This document shows, piece after piece, positions 22,264 to 32,026 of a stretch of DNA of 64,000 bases. A program made the position numbers and the translations under genes. Numbering within the stretch: the stretch's first letter is position 1; each line of letters opens with the position of its first letter. Source of the stretch: an uncultured Myxococcales bacterium (GTDB lineage Bacteria; Myxococcota_A; UBA9042); NCBI GenBank assembly GCA_903883645.1, contig CAISBR010000052.1:1-64000 (forward strand), written 5' to 3'. A model generated the notes under the pieces. The model made no database searches. It had not been told where the DNA came from and was given only the letters and a program-made list of their open reading frames with translations.

Positions 22264-23673
22264 CTACGGCTTGGCACTCGCCTTGGCACCAAACGGCACC
22301 CGCAGCGCCAGCGACACAATGTCCATCCCCGCCTCGTAGGTGCCATTGCCCACCACCGCCGCCTTGGGCGCGTCCATACCCGGCAGCACCGCAGGCGTCT
22401 CTTTCTGCTCAATTACGCTATCTGTCACGGTTTGCGTCGCGACAAAGTGGTGCGCATAGGCCAGGTCGATCCACGCATCGTACACGTGCAGCGACGCGCC
22501 GACGCTCGCCACATGCCGCGCCCAGTTGGGGAAGTCGACACTCACGTACTTGGTTGGAACTGCACTAGTTTCGTACATGTAGCCGGCGCGCAGCCGCAGC
22601 CGACCGGCCAAAAGCTCGTGCTCGCCGCCCAAGCGAAGGCTAATGGTGTCTTGAAACACATGCGGAAACACGATGTCTGGCACCGGCTTCGACGTATCGA
22701 ACGAAGTCTTCACGTTGATATTACTCGTCTTAATCCGCACTTCTTTGAGCGCCGACCACGCCTCGTACACCGCATCGACCTCGACCTCCCAATCGGGCCG
22801 CGGCCGCCACTGCGCACCCAGACGCACCATATCGGCGAATTTCAACTGCAATTGCGCGGTATCGCCCACCTGCCACGAGCTCGTCTTGGCCCAGTCTGGC
22901 CCCACGGTCTTTAACGTGCCGTCGGCGGCAAAATCGAGCCGGGGCCGCCACGACAGGCCGATCGCCAGCGTTTTCGTGGGCAAAACCGTCGCCCCGAGCA
23001 CAAATGCCGGCTTGATGCCATTGCTGCCCGCAAACGTCGCAGTGGTGTCGTTCTTGGGGTCAGTACCGGGCGCGGTGCCACTGTAAACGGCCTGCGTAAA
23101 GGTTGCGTTGCCGTGGGCAAGCTGAAAAGTCAGGCCTAGGCGCAGCCAATCGGACCAACCCACCGCCACCGCAGCCGAGTAGTAGGCAATAAAATAGTCT
23201 GTAGATTGAATCGCATAGCGCTGCGCACCCTGGGCTGGCAGCTCGAGCTTGCCGATCGACGACGGCCCTGTGGCACCCAGAGCCAGGGTCAACTCCGACA
23301 AGGGGCCGACAGCACCAAACCCGTAGCTAAGACAAGCACTTGGACCAAAGAAGGGCGGCGCGCTATTCTCAACCTTGGCGCTGCCGGGGATCGAGGTCGA
23401 GGTAAAGGCCAAGTGCTGCTGCGCCGCGCGCCCGTCAAGGGTCAGATTCAGGCCGTGTTGCTGGGCGAGGCCGGCGGGATTGTACTGAAAGGCAAGTCCA
23501 TCTGAAGGGTTGGCCGCCCATGCACCGCCGCGACCGATGGCTACGGTACCATTGTCGGGGTACTCGACGCCGGCCGCCCATGCCGAGCCTGCGCACAAAC
23601 ACCCAGCTAAAACCAAAGATTGCGATAGCACTGCCGCCCAGTTTCGGGCCGCTTTGTCGTGGTGCGCGCTCAT
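22264..23673 (-). CDS. FadL-family outer-membrane transport protein
   Basis: Encodes 469 residues from ATG 23673, chosen for the strong Shine-Dalgarno GGGGAGG and the signal peptide (SLVLAGCLCAGSAWA). The mature N-terminus has GRGGAWAANPSDGLAFQYNP followed by AGLA: the 'NPAG' plug motif is a hallmark of FadL/TodX channels. The rest alternates polar and aromatic beta strands, as in a 14-strand barrel. FadL proteins let long-chain fatty acids or other hydrophobic compounds cross the outer membrane by lateral diffusion. The gene is divergent from the MCE lipid-transport operon, separated by 250 bp, which suggests shared purpose or regulation. The C-terminus does not end in the classic aromatic residue. 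Confidence 0.88.
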   Translation of the reverse strand: MSAHHDKAARNWAAVLSQSLVLAGCLCAGSAWAAGVEYPDNGTVAIGRGGAWAANPSDGLAFQYNPAGLAQQHGLNLTLDGRAAQQHLAFTSTSIPGSAKVENSAPPFFGPSACLSYGFGAVGPLSELTLALGATGPSSIGKLELPAQGAQRYAIQSTDYFIAYYSAAVAVGWSDWLRLGLTFQLAHGNATFTQAVYSGTAPGTDPKNDTTATFAGSNGIKPAFVLGATVLPTKTLAIGLSWRPRLDFAADGTLKTVGPDWAKTSSWQVGDTAQLQLKFADMVRLGAQWRPRPDWEVEVDAVYEAWSALKEVRIKTSNINVKTSFDTSKPVPDIVFPHVFQDTISLRLGGEHELLAGRLRLRAGYMYETSAVPTKYVSVDFPNWARHVASVGASLHVYDAWIDLAYAHHFVATQTVTDSVIEQKETPAVLPGMDAPKAAVVGNGTYEAGMDIVSLALRVPFGAKASAKP

Positions 23674-23923: not shown

Positions 23924-25081
23924 ATGGCCCGCGTGCACGACGAGGCCGTTATCGCCCGCTCCCCTGCCCAGCTGACCGCGACCGAAGCGCCCGCCGTGCC
24001 GGGGCAGCCGCGCACTTGGCAGCTGAGTGGAGTGCTCGACGCGCACAGTTCGGCCGAGGTGCAGCAGCGCCTGGGCCGGCACCTGGGGCGTGCGACAGGG
24101 CCATTTTGTCTGGATTTGACGGAGTTACACGGCATCGACAGCGCGGGCGCGGCGACCTTAGTCGACCTGTGGCGGCAGAGCCAGGCGCGCGGCGTACTGC
24201 TGCAAGTTGTGGGTGCGCAACCGGCGGTCATCGAAAAACTGGCGCAATTTCGTGTTAATCCAACCCTTGCGCCCACGCCGCCTGCAGCGGGCCTATTTGA
24301 GGCTCTGGGCGACGCGGCTTGGCAAAACACCCTGGCCTTGCGCGACTTTATCGTGCTCGCCGCCGATGTGACGGTGGGTGCGGCGCTGGCCCTGCTGCGG
24401 CCGCATCGCCTGCGCTGGGGTGCGCTGCTGCAACAGTCGAGCCTAATGGGGTCGCAAGCGCTAGGCATTGTTGGGCTTATTACCTTTCTAATTGGTCTCA
24501 CGCTGGCGTTTCAGTCGGCCTATCAGCTCCGCCAATTCGGCGCGGCCATCTATGTGGCGACGCTGACTGCGATTTCGATGGTGCGCGAGATGGGCCCTCT
24601 GATCACGGCGATCTTGGTGGCGGGCCGCTCGGGGTCGTCGATCACCTCCGAAGTGGCGACCATGAAGGTGGGCGAAGAGATCGACGCGCTGCACGTAATG
24701 GGCATTCCTTTCGTAGACTTTGTGGCCGTGCCCAAGCTGCTGGCGATGCTGGTGACCGTGCCGCTGCTGACCGTGCTGGCCGATGTGCTGGGCATCGTGG
24801 GCGGCTGGATCGTGGGCATGGTCTACCTGGATCTGGCGCCGCGACCGTACCTGCAAAAGACCATCGACGCGCTAGTGGCCAAAGACTTGGCGACCGGGCT
24901 ATTCAAAAGCGTAGTATTTGCCTGGGGTATCGCCCTCATCGGCCTGTACTACGGCGCCGGGGTGCGCGGCGGGGCGCAAGAGGTCGGCCGCGCCACCACG
25001 GCCTCGGTCGTCAGCGGCATCTTCTTTATCATCGTCGCCGACAGCTTGTTTTCCATCCTGTTTTACGTGGTGCTGGGATGA
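23924..25081 (+). CDS. mlaE: MCE-system permease MlaE with fused N-terminal STAS domain
   Basis: Encodes 385 residues. Residues about 30-120 read as a STAS domain (LDLTELHGIDSAGAATLVDL), the MlaB-type partner that in E. coli is a separate protein. Residues about 125-385 are the MlaE permease: five or six hydrophobic helices with the conserved RSGSSITSEVATMKVGEEID loop that contacts the ATPase. It forms the inner-membrane core of an MCE phospholipid or hydrophobic-molecule transporter. It is the first gene of a four-gene operon; its stop overlaps the ATPase start (ATGA). STAS-MlaE fusions are known in other bacteria. Confidence 0.92.
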   Translation: MARVHDEAVIARSPAQLTATEAPAVPGQPRTWQLSGVLDAHSSAEVQQRLGRHLGRATGPFCLDLTELHGIDSAGAATLVDLWRQSQARGVLLQVVGAQPAVIEKLAQFRVNPTLAPTPPAAGLFEALGDAAWQNTLALRDFIVLAADVTVGAALALLRPHRLRWGALLQQSSLMGSQALGIVGLITFLIGLTLAFQSAYQLRQFGAAIYVATLTAISMVREMGPLITAILVAGRSGSSITSEVATMKVGEEIDALHVMGIPFVDFVAVPKLLAMLVTVPLLTVLADVLGIVGGWIVGMVYLDLAPRPYLQKTIDALVAKDLATGLFKSVVFAWGIALIGLYYGAGVRGGAQEVGRATTASVVSGIFFIIVADSLFSILFYVVLG

Positions 25082-25905
25082 GCAGCGCCGCCCTCGACTT
25101 GGCCCTGAGCCCGGCACTTGCGGTGCGCGGCCTGGTGGTCCGCTACGGCGAGCGCACGGTGCTCAGCGGCGTCGACATGACGGTGCCAGCCGGCGAAATC
25201 CGCGTCATCTTGGGCGGCAGCGGCTCGGGCAAGTCTACGCTCCTAAAGGGAATATTGGGCCTAACCGACGTCTCTGCCGGCAGCGTGACCCTGCTGGGTC
25301 AGCCGATGCTGGGTCTGCCCGAGGCCGAGCGCCAGCGGCTGATGCAGCGCGTGGGGGTTTTGTTCCAGAATGGCGCGCTGTTTGGCTCGCTGACTGTGGG
25401 CGAAAACGTGGCACTGCCGCTGCGCGAGCACCGCCGACTGCCCGAGGGGGCCATCCGCGAGCTGGTGCGCAGCAAACTGGCCCAAGTGGCGATGAGCCAC
25501 GCCGAACACCTATACCCTGCCGAGCTTTCTGGCGGCATGAAGAAGCGGGCCGGCCTGGCGCGGGCGCTGGCGCTCGACCCAGAGGTGCTGTTTTGCGACG
25601 AGCCGTCGGCCGGCTTGGACCCGCAGACGTCGCTGAACCTGGACAATTTGCTGCTACAACTGCGCGACCGACTTGGGGTTACTGTGGTTATCGTCACGCA
25701 CGAGCTCGCAAGCATTGAGGGTATTGCCGATTCGCTTATCATGATCGGCGCGGGCAAGGTCATTGCCGAGGGGGCCGTTGCCGAAGTGCGCCGCCGCGGT
25801 CTTGCGCAAGTAGACGACTTCTTTGCCCGGACCGCGCAGCTTGACGCGAGCCCCGAGGTCAGTGCGGCGGAGTTGCTGGGGCTCACCGCCCGCGGAGGTG
25901 CCTAG
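25078..25905 (+). CDS. mlaF: MCE-system ATPase MlaF
   Basis: Encodes 275 residues. It is an ABC ATPase with Walker A GGSGSGKST (about 45), the Q-loop in LFQNGALFGSLTV, a signature AELSGGMKKRAGLARALAL (about 150), Walker B LFCDEPSAGLDP (about 170) and the switch His in THE. The 'SGGMKKR' form is characteristic of MlaF/Mkl-type ATPases rather than ordinary importers. It energises lipid movement through MlaE. Start and stop overlap neighbouring genes (ATGA upstream, TAGTG downstream), so the three core subunits are translated together. Confidence 0.95.
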   Translation: MSSAALDLALSPALAVRGLVVRYGERTVLSGVDMTVPAGEIRVILGGSGSGKSTLLKGILGLTDVSAGSVTLLGQPMLGLPEAERQRLMQRVGVLFQNGALFGSLTVGENVALPLREHRRLPEGAIRELVRSKLAQVAMSHAEHLYPAELSGGMKKRAGLARALALDPEVLFCDEPSAGLDPQTSLNLDNLLLQLRDRLGVTVVIVTHELASIEGIADSLIMIGAGKVIAEGAVAEVRRRGLAQVDDFFARTAQLDASPEVSAAELLGLTARGGA

Positions 25906-26882
25906 TGGCCAGCCTGAGCAAGGGCCAAAAAGTCCGCCTAGGCGTGTTTGTCGCCACAGGCCTCAGCGTGCTTGCCGGTGCCACGGTGGTGCTCGCTGGC
26001 CGCAAATTCACCGAGCAGCTCGACACGTACGCGATCCGCTACTCGAACAAAGCTGCGTCGTTCGCGGGCCTGTCGATCGGCAGCGACGTCACCTACAGCG
26101 GCATCAAGATCGGCCGGGTCGAGAGCTTGGCCGTGGCCCGCGACGACGTTGCGGTCATCGAGGTCGGTATCAGCGTCGCCCACGGCACCCCGATTGCCGC
26201 CGACTCGAGCGCGAGCCTGGGCACACAGGGCATTACCGGCATGAAATACATCGACATTTCGCGCGGCTCGCAGACGGCTAAGCTGCGCCAACCGGGCGAG
26301 CGCATCCCGCCGGGCGAGTCGATGATCGACAACCTGAGTGCGCGCGCCACTTCGATCGGCGAGCGCCTCGACGCGCTGCTGATCAATCTGCAGGCGATGA
26401 CGGGGACGAGCCAGCAAAAGAGCCTCGACAAGGTGTTCGACCGGGTCGACAGCGTGCTGGGCGAGACCAGTGCAATCTTGAGCGACAATCGGCCGGCCAT
26501 CGCCGCCATCGTGCAAAATGCCCAGCAAGTTACCGAGGATATGACCACGATTTCGCGCAATTTGGCCCAGATTTCGCACAGCGGTGTGGCCATGGCTGAG
26601 CGCGCTGACCGGGTGATGGCCAACCTAGAGACCGCGAGCGGCGAACTAAAACAAGCCGCGGCGCCAAACGGCGAGGTGGCGGTGGCCGTGGCCAAGGTCG
26701 CCAAGCTGATCGACGGCCTGAACATGGTGGTGGTGCGCAGCCAGGGCGATATCGACGTAACTTTGAGGCACTTGCGCGACGCGGCCGCCGACCTGCGCGA
26801 TTTTGCCCAGGCCGTCAAAGACAACCCCACGACGCTGATGTTCACAAGCGAGCAAGGCAGCGACAGGAAGATCGGCAAATGA
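25905..26882 (+). CDS. mlaD: MCE-domain substrate-binding protein MlaD
   Basis: Encodes 325 residues starting with GTG that shares its first base with the upstream stop. One N-terminal transmembrane helix (VRLGVFVATGLSVLAGATVVLA) anchors it in the inner membrane. The MCE domain (about 38-120) has SIGSDVTYSGIKIGRVESL and ASLGTQGITGMKYIDIS, the usual core. A long helical tail (about 145-320), rich in Ala, Gln and Asp, would form a periplasmic needle or coiled-coil, as in MCE rings that bridge the periplasm. The stop overlaps the lipoprotein-barrel gene by 4 bp. The hexameric ring would conduct lipids between MlaE and the outer membrane. Confidence 0.92.
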   Translation: MASLSKGQKVRLGVFVATGLSVLAGATVVLAGRKFTEQLDTYAIRYSNKAASFAGLSIGSDVTYSGIKIGRVESLAVARDDVAVIEVGISVAHGTPIAADSSASLGTQGITGMKYIDISRGSQTAKLRQPGERIPPGESMIDNLSARATSIGERLDALLINLQAMTGTSQQKSLDKVFDRVDSVLGETSAILSDNRPAIAAIVQNAQQVTEDMTTISRNLAQISHSGVAMAERADRVMANLETASGELKQAAAPNGEVAVAVAKVAKLIDGLNMVVVRSQGDIDVTLRHLRDAAADLRDFAQAVKDNPTTLMFTSEQGSDRKIGK

Positions 26883-29179
26883 GTAGGTCGCAAGCCAATA
26901 AATTGCATCTTTTCAAGCTGTTTCGAGCCATGCTTGGGGCGCTCGTGCTGAGTGGCTGCTGGGGCACGACCGCCGCCGAGCAACGCTTCTATACGCTGAG
27001 CCTGCCGCAGGCCGCCGCGACGACCACCGGGCGCCACGCGGCGCAGGTATGGGTCAAAGAGGTCGAAATTGCGCCGGTTTACAACCGCCCGCAGATCGTG
27101 TTTCGCTTTTCGCCGCAAGAGCTGCAGTTCTTTAACCAGAGCCGCTGGGCCGACCGGCCCTCGCGCATGGTGGGCCAGCTGCTCGAGCGGGCGGTGACGA
27201 CGTCGGGGGTCTTTGCCGGGGTGGTGGCGCGACTGGGCACGGCGCCGCCCACCTATGTGCTTGATTCTAGTGTTGAAGCTATCGAAGAGCTCGAAGGCGG
27301 CGACCTGTGGTATGCCCACCTCGCCATGACCTTGCGCCTGTCGCGTTTCGACGACAACCGCGCCGTGTGGCAGTTTAGTTTTGACGAGCGCCGCCCAATC
27401 AATCGCCAAGACTTGGGCTTGGTTACGCGGGCATTGTCGGAGATTTTAGACGAGCAATTGGGCATCGCGCTGCGGCAGATGGAGGCCGCGCTCGATGGCA
27501 AGCCGCCGCTGGCGACCAAGCCGGTGCCGACCGCCGCCAGTCCGCCCAAAAGCAACGGTATAGAACTGCAGCCGAATCAAGCGGTTCATGGCAGTGTGCC
27601 GGTCGCAGGCGAGACCAAGTTCGACGGCACCAATGGCAGCGAGGTCAACTGGCGCAACAGCACGCAATACCACAGCGACAACACGGCGATTCCCACGGGC
27701 AAGGGCGCGATTTTCTTACCCTCGCTCAGTCTCAAGGCCGAACGCGAGCCCCCAGTCAGCGTGCTGCAAGACGGCAAAGTGGTGGGCAGCGGCGGCATGG
27801 GCCGGCGGATTGTCATGGCGCCGGGGCAGTACGAAGTGGCGTTCGGCTCGGGGCCGGCGTCGCAACACCTGCTGCGGCAAGTCGTGGTCGAAGAGGGCCG
27901 CACCACCATTGTTTCGCCCGACTGGGCGGTGCTCGATGTCAGCGTCGTCAACGCCAAATTCATCCCATTCTTGGGCACCTACGAGATCATGCGCATGGAC
28001 GACCGCGAGTACATGGGCGTGGGCTACGGCGTCGACGAAGAGCTGGGCCAGCGCGCGCAGGTGTGGGTGCTAAAGCCCAGTCTTTACAAGATTGTGCAGT
28101 CGGGGTCGACCTACCGCGCCCGCACCAACTTTGCCACGGTGCTGCTGGTGCCGGGCATGGCCGTGCCGTACCTGCTGGTGCAAGACGACACCACCCGCGA
28201 CTTCTTGGGCGCTGGCGTGGCTGAGCCCGATAGCAGCCGCTGGGTCGACACGCGCACCGATCAAGAGGGAAATTGGCGCTTTCGCACCTCTTTAGGCGGC
28301 AGCGTGCTGCTGAATAATCGCACCGAGGGCTACTCGAGCGCGCCGGTAGGGAGCAGCTTAGGCATCGACTTGTTTTCGGATAATCGCCTAACGTTCAACT
28401 CCGATCCGCATATCTGGACCACTCGCCTCGAGATCGAAGAAGGCCAGTCGCTGCAGCCCACCATCGGCACCGACAATAAGCCCGGCAGCCTACTCGACGG
28501 CCGCTTGCTGTCGGTCAAGGATCGCGTCTACTTCAATTCAATCTATATTTATCAATACTTGCCATGGGTCGGCCCATACCTGCGCGTGGGCGGCGAGACC
28601 ACCTTGGTCGACCAGCAGACCTACTTTGAGAAGCCGACACAGGTGGTGGTGCAAGACACGGGCGGGGCCACGATTGCGACCCATAACGGCAGCGACGGCA
28701 AGGGCGAGACCAAGTTTGTGCTGAGCGGACCGCTGACGCCGGTGCAGCTCAAGCAAGGCGCGGGCGTGAATTTTCGGGTGCTGCACAATACGACCTTCGA
28801 CCTCGACTTGCGCTCGGGTCTGGGTTCGCGGCAATACCTCGCGCGCAACCAGCTCGTGCCCAAAGACGACCCGAATACGCCCAGTTTCGAGGTGCGGCGG
28901 GTGGCTGGCACGGTGCTGACCGGTTTCGAGGCCTCGGCGCTGGGCCAGCTGCGGCTGACGCGCTACCTGCAAGGCTCGACCGAGCTCGACGCGCTGCTGC
29001 CCTTTGACGGCCTGACCGCCACTCAGCTGACTTGGCGCAGTGCTTTGAGTCTGCGTTTGGGCAGTTACGCGTCGCTGACCTATACGCTGAACGTGGTGCG
29101 CCAGCCCAATGTGCGGCCCGACACGCCGTGGGCGACCGAGCAAGGCCTGCAGCTGCGCTTCCACTACGCACCTTTGTAG
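26879..29179 (+). CDS. PqiC-like MCE auxiliary lipoprotein joined to probable outer-membrane beta-barrel
   Basis: Encodes 766 residues. The lipoprotein signal ends in lipobox LSGC (Cys about 27). Residues about 35-210 resemble the ABC-transport auxiliary lipoprotein family (PqiC/LetC-like): FYTLSLP at the start, VWVKEVEIAPVYNRPQIVFR, and a MVGQLLERAVTTSGVF helix. A Pro/Lys linker follows. Residues about 240-450 are beta-rich, with a PEGA-like MAPGQYEVAF part. Residues about 460-766 alternate hydrophobic and polar strands (for example RVYFNSIYIYQYLPWVGPYL and SALSLRLGSYASLTYTLNVV) and look like an outer-membrane barrel. Stand-alone PqiC proteins are about 190 residues. The fusion would place an outer-membrane domain at the end of the MCE path. 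It is the last gene of the operon, 9 bp from a convergent gene. Confidence 0.82.
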   Translation: MSRSQANKLHLFKLFRAMLGALVLSGCWGTTAAEQRFYTLSLPQAAATTTGRHAAQVWVKEVEIAPVYNRPQIVFRFSPQELQFFNQSRWADRPSRMVGQLLERAVTTSGVFAGVVARLGTAPPTYVLDSSVEAIEELEGGDLWYAHLAMTLRLSRFDDNRAVWQFSFDERRPINRQDLGLVTRALSEILDEQLGIALRQMEAALDGKPPLATKPVPTAASPPKSNGIELQPNQAVHGSVPVAGETKFDGTNGSEVNWRNSTQYHSDNTAIPTGKGAIFLPSLSLKAEREPPVSVLQDGKVVGSGGMGRRIVMAPGQYEVAFGSGPASQHLLRQVVVEEGRTTIVSPDWAVLDVSVVNAKFIPFLGTYEIMRMDDREYMGVGYGVDEELGQRAQVWVLKPSLYKIVQSGSTYRARTNFATVLLVPGMAVPYLLVQDDTTRDFLGAGVAEPDSSRWVDTRTDQEGNWRFRTSLGGSVLLNNRTEGYSSAPVGSSLGIDLFSDNRLTFNSDPHIWTTRLEIEEGQSLQPTIGTDNKPGSLLDGRLLSVKDRVYFNSIYIYQYLPWVGPYLRVGGETTLVDQQTYFEKPTQVVVQDTGGATIATHNGSDGKGETKFVLSGPLTPVQLKQGAGVNFRVLHNTTFDLDLRSGLGSRQYLARNQLVPKDDPNTPSFEVRRVAGTVLTGFEASALGQLRLTRYLQGSTELDALLPFDGLTATQLTWRSALSLRLGSYASLTYTLNVVRQPNVRPDTPWATEQGLQLRFHYAPL

Positions 29180-29188
29180 TGGCGGCAA

Positions 29189-29845
29189 CTATGCGTGCGG
29201 AATCAAGCCATTGCGAATCGCAAACCGCACCAGATCCGCCGTGGTCTCTACGCCCAGCTGCTCCATAATCGCCCGGCGATGGGCGTCGACGGTCTTGCTG
29301 CTGATGCCGAGAGAAAATGCCACTTCTTTAGCCGACATCCCCTCAGCGAGGAGGCGCAGCACCGACTGCTGGCGAAAGCTAAGAGCCGACTTTAGCTCGC
29401 CCGGCGCGGCCGCCGCTTCGTTTGTCGGTTGGCGAAAGCCATCGGCCACGGTCGACGCCACTTCGGGGCACAGGTAATGCTTGCCCGCGTGCACCGTGCG
29501 AATGGCGCGCGGCAGCTCGTCGAGCTCCGTGTCTTTGGTGATGTAGCCGTGCGCGCCCAGCCTGAGCGCCTCGCGCACAAACGCCGACTCGCCGTGCATC
29601 GACAGGATCACGATGCGGCAAGTAGGATGAATTTCACGAATTTTCGGCACGGCTTCGAGGCCGGTCAACCGCGGCATGGTCACATCGAGCACCACCACGT
29701 CGGGCTTGAGCGCCGCCGCCAGCTCGCAGGCCATTAGGCCATCGGAGGCCTCACCCACGACCTCGATGTCGGGCTCCGACTTCAGCACGAGGCAAAGACC
29801 CGAACGCACCAAGTTGTGATCATCGGCTAGCAACACGCGAATCAC
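29189..29845 (-). CDS. NarL/FixJ-family response regulator
   Basis: Encodes 218 residues. The receiver domain begins IRVLLADDHNLVRSGL and has the phospho-acceptor Asp in VVVLDVTMPRLTG (about 54), the Thr/Ser switch in ILSMHGES and the Lys in YITKDTE. The C-terminal LuxR-type helix-turn-helix reads LSFRQQSVLRLLAEGMSAKE and SLGISSKTVDAHRRAI. It should bind DNA as a dimer when phosphorylated. Its start overlaps the stop of the kinase gene by 4 bp, so the two form a cognate pair with the HbpS-like gene just upstream. No dedicated operator could be identified. Confidence 0.92.
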   Translation of the reverse strand: MIRVLLADDHNLVRSGLCLVLKSEPDIEVVGEASDGLMACELAAALKPDVVVLDVTMPRLTGLEAVPKIREIHPTCRIVILSMHGESAFVREALRLGAHGYITKDTELDELPRAIRTVHAGKHYLCPEVASTVADGFRQPTNEAAAAPGELKSALSFRQQSVLRLLAEGMSAKEVAFSLGISSKTVDAHRRAIMEQLGVETTADLVRFAIRNGLIPHA

Positions 29846-31563
29846 GACTTCACCGCCTTGGTTGGGCGCACAGCGAGTGGCGGCGCACCGATCTCAATAT
29901 CCACTTCGGCACCGCGCCCAGAGGCCTGCCGCACATGCAAGCCGCCGCCAACGCCGATTAGGCGCTCGCGCCAGGCAAACAGGCCATAGCCTGGCCCGGC
30001 CACAGCAGGGGCATCGATCGAATAACCCTTGCGAAAGCCGCCACCATCGTCTGCCACCCGCAGCCACAGCCGCCCCGAGCGCCGCCAGCACGACACGGTC
30101 AAGGTCTGCGCCGCCGCGTGCTTGACCGCGTTGTGAATGAGCTCGCGCACCGCACCAAACACAATCGTCGCATGCAAGTCGCCGAGTTGACCAGAGGTCC
30201 GCCACTGCAGGCTCGCTCGCAGGCCGTGCTGCATCTGCGCCCGGTCGAGCAGCCCCTCAATCGCCTCGCGCAGGCCAAAAGTATAGAGCGCGGTCGGACT
30301 TAGGTCTGTCGTCAAGCCCCGGGCCGCCTTCATGATGCCGACCACCGCGTCGTCGAGCTCGGCAAACCGCACCTTTAGATGCGCATCGACCACCGTCTGC
30401 CGCATCAGATCGCGCAAATTTAGGCGCAGCAGCGTCAGCTCTTGACCAATGCCGTCGTGGATCTCGAGCGCCAAACGCCGCCGCTCGGCCTCTTCGGCCA
30501 TCACCAGCGACTCGGTCGCGCGCGCCAGCCGCTCTTGGTAGTCAACCAAGTGGCTCTCCGTACGCTCGCGTTGCGCGACTTCGCTCAGCAACAGCTGCAC
30601 GGTCGCGTCAAGCGTGGCCGTTCGCTCAGCAACCCTGCGCTCCAACACACTGCGCCCGACATGCAGCGCCTGCTCCGCCCGCTTGCGCGCATCGATATCT
30701 TGGTGGATACCCGCCGCCCGCAGTGGCCGGCCATCCGCGTCGCGCAGCAGCACCCGGCCGGTATCCAATACCCAGCGCCAATCGCCTTGCCGGGTCCTAA
30801 GGCGGTGCTCGGTCGAGTAGTAGGGTGTGTGACCGTCGAGGTGCGCTTGCAGCGTGCGCATCACCTCGGGCATGTCGTCGGGATGCAAAAGCTCTTCCCA
30901 AACAGAGACATGCGGCGGAACTTCGGACAGCTCGTAGCCCAGCATCTCGGCCCAACGCTTGTTAAACGTCACATGGCCGCTGGCGATATCCCAATCCCAG
31001 CTGCCCAAGTGGGCGCCATCGACCACAAAACTGAGGGCTTCTTGGCTGTGGCGCGTCGCATCCAGCGCCTGCAGCCGCGAGTAGATCACCCCGGCCAAGC
31101 TCGCGGCCACGCGCAGCACATAGATCGTCTGCTCGGAGTAGGCGTTGGGCCGCACATCGCCCAGCCCAAGGGTGCCAACCACCTGATCACCCGAGCGAAC
31201 TGGAATAAAGAGCCGCGAACGAATCACCGGAGCGCCCGACACCGTCTGCGTCTGATTGAGCGGATCATCTAGCGTATCCGGCACATGCAACAGCTTGCCG
31301 CTCCGGATCACGCGCATGGGGTGGCGCTGCGTCGCGGTCCGCTCCAGTTCGTCAAAATCTTTGCGCAAATAGCCACGGGCTACGGCCAAACGCAAGCGCC
31401 CTGTGGTCGGTTCAAAGAAGTAGAAACCGGCGTGCGAGGTGTTGACGACCGTTTCGACGCCATCAAATAGGCCGCGCGCCAGCTCTTCGATGGTGGTGGC
31501 GGTTGCCAGTCGGTCGACTACGCCGCCGAACATAGACGCCATCTGCTCGTAATTAATAGACAT
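29842..31563 (-). CDS. Soluble GAF-PAS sensor histidine kinase (HisKA_3 type)
   Basis: Encodes 573 residues from ATG 31563, eight bases after the stop of the HbpS-like gene. Domains: GAF (about 10-150; TIEELARGLFDGVETVV), PAS with PAC (about 165-300; LGSWDWDIASGHVTFNKRWA), a coiled coil (about 300-360), HisKA_3 with phospho-acceptor His in LALEIHDGIGQE (about 368), and a C-terminal HATPase (VRELIHNAVKHA, then VADDGGGF). There is no transmembrane segment, so it senses a cytosolic signal, perhaps a small molecule or redox cue through GAF or PAS. It should phosphorylate the adjacent NarL-type regulator. The frame continues upstream into the neighbouring gene, but domain content starts at the chosen ATG. 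Confidence 0.9.
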   Translation of the reverse strand: MSINYEQMASMFGGVVDRLATATTIEELARGLFDGVETVVNTSHAGFYFFEPTTGRLRLAVARGYLRKDFDELERTATQRHPMRVIRSGKLLHVPDTLDDPLNQTQTVSGAPVIRSRLFIPVRSGDQVVGTLGLGDVRPNAYSEQTIYVLRVAASLAGVIYSRLQALDATRHSQEALSFVVDGAHLGSWDWDIASGHVTFNKRWAEMLGYELSEVPPHVSVWEELLHPDDMPEVMRTLQAHLDGHTPYYSTEHRLRTRQGDWRWVLDTGRVLLRDADGRPLRAAGIHQDIDARKRAEQALHVGRSVLERRVAERTATLDATVQLLLSEVAQRERTESHLVDYQERLARATESLVMAEEAERRRLALEIHDGIGQELTLLRLNLRDLMRQTVVDAHLKVRFAELDDAVVGIMKAARGLTTDLSPTALYTFGLREAIEGLLDRAQMQHGLRASLQWRTSGQLGDLHATIVFGAVRELIHNAVKHAAAQTLTVSCWRRSGRLWLRVADDGGGFRKGYSIDAPAVAGPGYGLFAWRERLIGVGGGLHVRQASGRGAEVDIEIGAPPLAVRPTKAVKS

Positions 31564-31570
31564 ATTCCAG

Positions 31571-32026
31571 TTAGCCTGGTGCTGAATCCTTGGTAGCCGA
31601 CGCAGTCGCATCGACCAGTCCAAGTGCCACCCTAGCGCATTCGTCGTCTTGAGCGTAGTGCCCGCCGCTGACCCCGATCGCGCCAGCCACTTGCCCGGCC
31701 AGGCGCAAGGGATGGCCACCGGTCAGCATGGTAAAATTAGGCAGAGCGAGGATGCCCTGCTCCAAGATATAGTCGCCGCGGCTGAAATCGACCCAAGCCT
31801 GGCCGGTCGGTATGCCAAAACCCACTGCCGTCAGCGCCTTGTTGCGGGCCACTTCAACGGCCACAAGCGGGGCACCGTCCATGCGGGCAAAGGCTTTAAG
31901 TACGCCACTTTCGTCGACAATCGCGACAGCTACGCATACGCCGATTTGCTTGGCGTGGGCGACAGCGGCCTCGACAAGAGCGGTCGCCGTGGCAAGAGGT
32001 AGACTGGGCTTCCATACAATGCTCAC
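31571..32026 (-). CDS. GlcG/HbpS-like protein
   Basis: Encodes 151 residues from GTG 32026, with GAGCAGG as a plausible Shine-Dalgarno. The pattern VAVAIVDESGVLKAFARMDG, then ARNKALTAVGFG and GVSGGHYAQDDECA, matches the GlcG/HbpS family. In Streptomyces reticuli HbpS binds haem and modulates the SenS-SenR two-component system by redox-dependent contact with the kinase. Here the gene lies directly upstream of a HisKA_3 kinase and a NarL-type regulator in one likely operon, the same association. No signal peptide is seen, so this version should be cytosolic, matching the soluble kinase. Haem binding cannot be judged from sequence; some family members are metabolic proteins of unknown role. Confidence 0.85.
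   Translation of the reverse strand: MSIVWKPSLPLATATALVEAAVAHAKQIGVCVAVAIVDESGVLKAFARMDGAPLVAVEVARNKALTAVGFGIPTGQAWVDFSRGDYILEQGILALPNFTMLTGGHPLRLAGQVAGAIGVSGGHYAQDDECARVALGLVDATASATKDSAPG

Follow-up and report, generated by a model that had tools for sequence, protein, structure and literature searches.

In Escherichia coli, eight copies of the lipoprotein PqiC assemble in the outer membrane into a toroid approximately 100 Å wide with a pore of approximately 40 Å, which receives the needle of PqiB (PMC10897342). In Brucella abortus, the MpcEFDA system consists of MlaEFD-like proteins and a PqiC-like lipoprotein, which co-purify as one complex and have been modelled as a trans-envelope bridge (PMC12436622). 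Here we describe a gene located at positions 26,879–29,179 on the forward strand of a 64,000-nucleotide stretch from an uncultured Myxococcales bacterium (GenBank assembly GCA_903883645.1, contig CAISBR010000052.1, positions 1–64,000; hereafter the window). Based on its open reading frame, Pfam matches, AlphaFold2 models and homologues, it encodes a protein of 766 residues, beginning with an ATG codon, in which a PqiC-family lipoprotein is continued by a β-sandwich region and a predicted outer-membrane β-barrel. The system is probably an Mpc-type MCE transporter of a known kind, and the barrel-bearing PqiC is its new part.

The locus resembles Mpc in its MlaEFD-type ABC core, its long, putatively needle-like protein with a single MCE domain, its PqiC-family lipoprotein encoded last and the lack of MlaA in the operon. 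It differs in that MpcA is described as a PqiC-like lipoprotein only, whereas the protein described here combines PqiC, β-sandwich and barrel, and in that MlaE carries a STAS domain (PMC12436622). The PqiABC system of E. coli shares the PqiC fold, the lipobox and, as proposed here, a role as the outer-membrane ring of an MCE needle (PDB 8q2c), but its PqiC has no barrel, and PqiA and PqiB are without an MlaEF ABC core (PMC10897342). The closest functional parallel is the barrel-bearing MlaD of Veillonella parvula, whose MlaEFD system is an MCE machine with its own outer-membrane β-barrel and without MlaA (PMC10665443). In that organism, a 10-stranded barrel is attached to the C-terminus of MlaD, no lipoprotein is involved, and both MlaA and MlaC are missing (PMC10665443). 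In the window, by contrast, a predicted 12-stranded barrel is attached to PqiC, and MlaD is a separate protein that ends at 325 residues without a barrel.

Two further systems share single features with this locus. In the E. coli MlaA-OmpC/OmpF complex and MlaFEDB-MlaC, the receiving side of an MCE system likewise pairs an outer-membrane lipoprotein with an outer-membrane barrel, but the lipoprotein MlaA is not related to PqiC, a general porin is recruited as the barrel, and the shuttle protein MlaC performs the transfer. TamL of Bacteroidota also combines lipoprotein and outer-membrane barrel in one protein and is the partner of a trans-envelope bridge, but it belongs to the TamA/BamA family, its partner is TamB, and neither MCE nor PqiC is involved (PMC12045153). 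No description of a PqiC-barrel fusion turned up in the literature on PqiC and MCE, transport auxiliary lipoproteins and myxobacterial MCE, in which subscription papers and preprints were thinly covered. A preliminary description of the window, made from the sequence, knew of no described system with this architecture; as far as that literature goes, the statement stands for the fusion itself, but V. parvula already provides an MCE protein that ends in an outer-membrane barrel.

Domain architecture of the fused protein

The full-length AlphaFold2 model, built from 55 relatives, has a mean predicted local distance difference test (pLDDT) score of 88.4 and a predicted template modelling (pTM) score of 0.58. 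It shows, from the N-terminus, a signal helix with the lipobox, a PqiC fold extending to residue 205, a disordered segment, a middle domain (residues 262–450 in the model), and long antiparallel strands from residue 466 to residue 763. Because of the pTM score, the relative placement of the domains is not fixed by the model. The domain architecture itself is near-certain at the level of prediction.

The lipoprotein signal peptide (26,879–26,959) ends with the lipobox LSGC and the predicted acylated Cys27, which is nearly invariant in the fused homologues. A lipobox-like motif is present in most PqiC-bearing relatives, and the window gene has no Asp at position +2. The PqiC ring-subunit domain comprises residues 36–205 (26,984–27,493). 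Pfam ABC_trans_aux (PF03886, the PqiC family) matches residues 38–192 with an E value of 2.7e-17 and 63.2 bits against a cut-off of 26, covering profile positions 1–155 of 161. In a Foldseek comparison with the PDB, PqiC structures are the best matches of the N-terminal domain, with template modelling (TM) scores normalized by target of 0.80 for 2iqi and 0.85 for 8q2c (range 0.80–0.86), and the profile matches of this part include 13hr, 2iqi, 13hq and 8q2c. The NCBIfam model for the E. coli-type PqiC (NF033620) gives 16.3 bits against a cut-off of 200. These matches place the fused protein in the PqiC family, although outside the E. coli type. PDB entries 13hr, 13hs and 13hq, which are among the top profile matches of the PqiC part, are annotated as an ABC-type transport auxiliary lipoprotein with eight chains per entry; in the literature covered, no paper on the three entries was found.

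The PqiC domain is followed by approximately 560 residues, in which the β-rich middle and the strand-rich C-terminal part of about 300 residues claimed by the preliminary description were recovered, as was the PqiC-like lipoprotein at the start of the frame. The fusion junction is a flexible linker (residues 206–261; 27,494–27,661), delimited by AlphaFold2 and by its substitution rates (discussed below), with pLDDT values below 50 at residues 217–242. The strand-rich middle domain (about residues 262–460; 27,662–28,258) probably consists of two Ig/transthyretin-like β-sandwiches located in the periplasm, as suggested by the strands of the model. Its family matches are weak (Fn3-like and CarboxypepD_reg), a shuffle test found no membrane-type strand alternation in it, and a sequence search for a solved relative of this domain found none.

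The C-terminal domain (residues 466–763; 28,274–29,167) is predicted to be a 12-stranded outer-membrane β-barrel. When modelled alone, it yields a pLDDT of 92.5 and a pTM of 0.85, with 12 long antiparallel strands, an even number. Among the matches listed by Foldseek against the PDB, outer-membrane barrels account for 50 of 50 when the barrel is used alone; with the full-length model, the matches listed besides the PqiC structures are outer-membrane barrels aligned at the C-terminus. The strand-wise hydrophobic alternation is 2.78, compared with 1.36 ± 0.29 in within-strand shuffles, none of which (0 of 2000) is as high. In 45 family members, 69% of the lipid-facing positions are hydrophobic and 7% are charged, whereas 32% of the lumen-facing positions are charged. 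Because facing was assigned by the more hydrophobic of the two alternate sets, this contrast is partly built in, and its informative parts are its size and the conservation of the charges. The conserved lumen residues include R569, R645, R651, E684, R692 and R760. The strand alternation and the charged, conserved lumen support a membrane barrel.

The last strand ends in a β-signal-like sequence (LQLRFHYAPL, 29,147–29,176; LRFSYTLF in relatives). In the alignment of relatives, the consensus is LRFSYxxF, and each of the 42 complete rows ends with F, L, W, Y or M. None of the curated families exceeds its cut-off for the barrel of the window (DUF481 reaches 14.1 bits against 21.1), and the barrels of relatives match Pfam OMP_b-brl, DUF481 and DUF3078 weakly.

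The possibility that the C-terminus is a soluble β domain, or that a sequencing error joined two genes, can be regarded as extremely improbable, and no support for it was found. A soluble domain was rejected on the basis of the alternation, the facing composition and the confident barrel models. An assembly error or frameshift was rejected because the fusion recurs in 18 independent genomes. The stand-alone relatives of the barrel, moreover, have signal-peptide-like N-termini and the same C-terminal signature. Thus, neither of the two outcomes named beforehand as refuting the preliminary description was found, and its proposal of an outer-membrane barrel is borne out by prediction.

Operon context, distribution and history

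The fused gene is the last of four genes on the forward strand, in which every start overlaps the preceding stop. The first (23,924–25,081) encodes an MlaE-like permease (Pfam MlaE, E = 1e-70) with an N-terminal MlaB-like STAS domain (E = 1.9e-13). The second (25,078–25,905) encodes an MlaF-like ABC ATPase (Pfam ABC_tran, E = 2.7e-30), for which the top NCBIfam model is MlaF (PRK11831; E = 3.3e-53, under its equivalog cut-off). The third (25,905–26,882) encodes the MlaD-like protein of 325 residues, with a single MCE domain at residues 49–121 (Pfam MlaD, E = 2.7e-14). The approximately 200 proline-poor residues after the MCE domain read as a helical needle, which would be long enough to span the periplasm. 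The start of the fused gene overlaps the mlaD stop in the sequence ATGA, and its own stop codon is located at 29,177–29,179. The content of an Mpc-type operon (MlaE, MlaF, MlaD and a PqiC-family lipoprotein) is therefore present.

We surveyed a sample of 284 Myxococcota genomes. The fused gene occurs in 18 of them, belonging to three families (f1, f30 and f47), as a single frame with no internal stops, and it follows mlaD wherever the contig extends far enough. For a scan of a genome collection, an alignment of the fused set was used, the 36-member family alignment being too diverse. The search for the same domain order beside mlaEFD in other genomes, which the preliminary description had proposed, thus succeeded. 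Approximately 25 more genomes from other families have a split arrangement, in which mlaE-mlaF-mlaD-pqiC is followed by a second gene, whose product starts with a signal-like segment and comprises the middle domain and the barrel. In one of these (G171), the pqiC and barrel genes are on different contigs, and their adjacency is unproven there.

The ratios of nonsynonymous to synonymous substitution rates (dN/dS) against the two nearest relatives are 0.12–0.15 for the PqiC domain, 0.14 for the middle domain and 0.09–0.12 for the barrel. The linker, with values of 0.23–0.49, is the fastest-changing segment and the only relaxed part. Judged by these substitution patterns, the fusion is under purifying selection.

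In a tree of the middle-plus-barrel part, from which L027 and L092 were left out because of their long branches and probably wrong frames, the split forms make up one group (support 100/99), and the fused forms together with four derived stand-alone paralogues make up another (100/99.6). The two groups are adjacent, and the remaining stand-alone forms fall outside both. These sister clades are consistent with a single fusion or a single fission. In the simplest account, the barrel protein would have joined the mce operon once and then been fused to PqiC once; less simply, the gene would have been fused and then split. The root of the tree is not fixed, so that the direction of the event remains inferential.

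The four paralogues nested in the fused clade (L041:6400-8154, L043:763-3036, L087 and L091) contain the middle domain and barrel without a PqiC domain. In at least two of them, a cysteine-rich N-terminal segment replaces PqiC (e.g. CKRFCARMELDCPDVFLGNEATCLWAC), away from mce genes. Stand-alone middle-plus-barrel proteins were also observed outside Myxococcota, in metagenome-assembled genomes of Acidobacteria (L093, L094 and L095). One contig of 3.6 kb, assigned to Verrucomicrobiia, carries a fused homologue (L086) that lies deep inside the myxobacterial fused clade; this contig is probably mis-binned. A family of barrel-only proteins of approximately 350 residues (L064, L067, L068, L069 and many more), related to the barrel domain and with borderline DUF3078 matches, is widespread in Myxococcota. 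Among ten further long PqiC-containing frames fetched in the phylum, no other type of PqiC fusion was found where the PqiC gene was readable; the readable genes are ordinary (approximately 190–220 residues), mostly located after PqiB-like genes, or a short gene ending a spurious long frame. A search of plasmids found nothing.

The genome of the window (95% complete) encodes four MCE proteins, three MlaC proteins, one PqiC-family protein, which is the fused one, and no MlaA. Among the surveyed genomes, MlaA is present in 58 of 284, whereas all 44 genomes that have the barrel operon, fused or split, are without it. This absence follows family boundaries; it is compatible with replacement of MlaA by the barrel, but is not proof of it. 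The three other MCE proteins of this genome (G000), one of approximately 550 residues, are located on contigs C97, C102 and C119 (L104–L106), with no PqiC or barrel neighbours recognised.

Divergent from mlaE, approximately 400 bases away, is a gene for an outer-membrane protein of the FadL/TodX family (22,264–23,523, reverse strand; Pfam Toluene_X, E = 8e-28). No homologue of this gene was found in the fetched loci of relatives. On the other side, genes read from the sequence as a LuxR-type response regulator and a PAS/GAF-like sensor kinase (29,189–31,719, reverse strand) converge on the operon and end 10 bases past the stop of the fused gene.

Possible roles of the barrel

We consider it probable that the operon encodes a trans-envelope lipid transporter of the Mpc type (MlaEFD and PqiC), in which outer-membrane barrels are covalently attached to the PqiC ring and the barrel serves for docking, as an anchor or as a scaffold. 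MlaD would form a hexameric helical needle across the periplasm, capped at the inner leaflet of the outer membrane by a ring of PqiC domains, which is octameric in known relatives. This ring would be held in the membrane by its lipid anchors and by the barrels, one of which is covalently linked to each PqiC subunit. Phospholipid would travel along the MlaD tunnel, towards the outer membrane or away from it, powered by the ATPase MlaF. Like OmpC for MlaA, the barrels would most likely serve as an anchor or scaffold, and lipids would leave or enter at the exterior of the ring and barrels rather than through the charged lumen.

Several points weigh against this reading. The closure of strand 1 onto strand 12 is inferred, and the TM scores of the barrel against solved barrels are about 0.4–0.5, so that it has no known close relative among structures. 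How MlaD would meet the PqiC ring, and how many subunits the ring would have, are carried over by analogy from E. coli and Brucella, and lipid is assigned as the substrate from the family. The absence of MlaA may reflect shared ancestry, not replacement. Finally, other Myxococcota and some Acidobacteriota have the barrel protein on its own, without mce genes nearby, and therefore lipid transport is not necessarily its basic function.

The preliminary description had proposed an outer-membrane docking pore. A docking role is likely, as far as can be judged from the architecture, whereas a lipid pore through the barrel lumen is not supported: the charged, conserved lumen disfavours the passage of lipids and favours a scaffold or anchor. 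The same lumen bears on the unlikely alternative that the barrel is a substrate channel, i.e. a porin-like or FadL-like importer from which an external hydrophobic nutrient or lipid would pass through the PqiC ring to the MCE needle, for uptake and not for membrane maintenance. Mycobacterial MCE systems do import lipids, the Foldseek matches of the barrel include FadL and TodX among many others, and a FadL-family gene lies divergently upstream. However, a lumen lined with conserved Arg, Glu and Asp residues does not resemble a hydrophobic conduit, a barrel of 12 strands is narrow, and the linkage of the FadL-like gene to the operon is not conserved in the fetched loci of relatives.

It is also possible, although we doubt it, that the barrel is a mere anchor or assembly handle, which holds the ring in the membrane or connects its assembly with BAM, without participating in the transfer of lipids. 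Ordinary PqiC proteins (e.g. that of G088, in the same family, with 221 residues) follow mlaEFD with no homologous barrel within the fetched 8 kb, and the authors of the V. parvula study also allow an anchoring or stabilising role for the barrel of that system (PMC10665443). Yet PqiC is already lipid-anchored, and a strongly constrained addition of 500 residues (dN/dS 0.09–0.14) with a conserved charged lumen suggests more than tethering.

Under the preferred reading of a PqiC ring tied to its own barrels, the fusion dictates one barrel per PqiC subunit, and an octamer would therefore bear eight of them. We tentatively suggest that these could surround the tip of the hexameric MlaD as a crown enclosing a patch of outer membrane for the delivery or extraction of lipids. 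By standard barrel geometry, a 12-stranded barrel is approximately 32 Å across. Eight such barrels side by side would form a ring with approximately 84 Å between opposite centres, which is compatible with a toroid of 100 Å; this is arithmetic and not a model.

To the open question of how MCE lipid transporters are linked to the outer membrane, the known answers are a shuttle with an MlaA-porin complex (E. coli Mla), a PqiC ring (Pqi and Mpc) and a barrel on MlaD (Veillonella); the PqiC-barrel protein adds another. The gene fusion ties the barrel covalently to the PqiC ring, and the prediction for related myxobacteria is that PqiC and the barrel protein encoded separately beside it work together. 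If true, the barrel crown would give the outer membrane a portal of a previously undescribed architecture.

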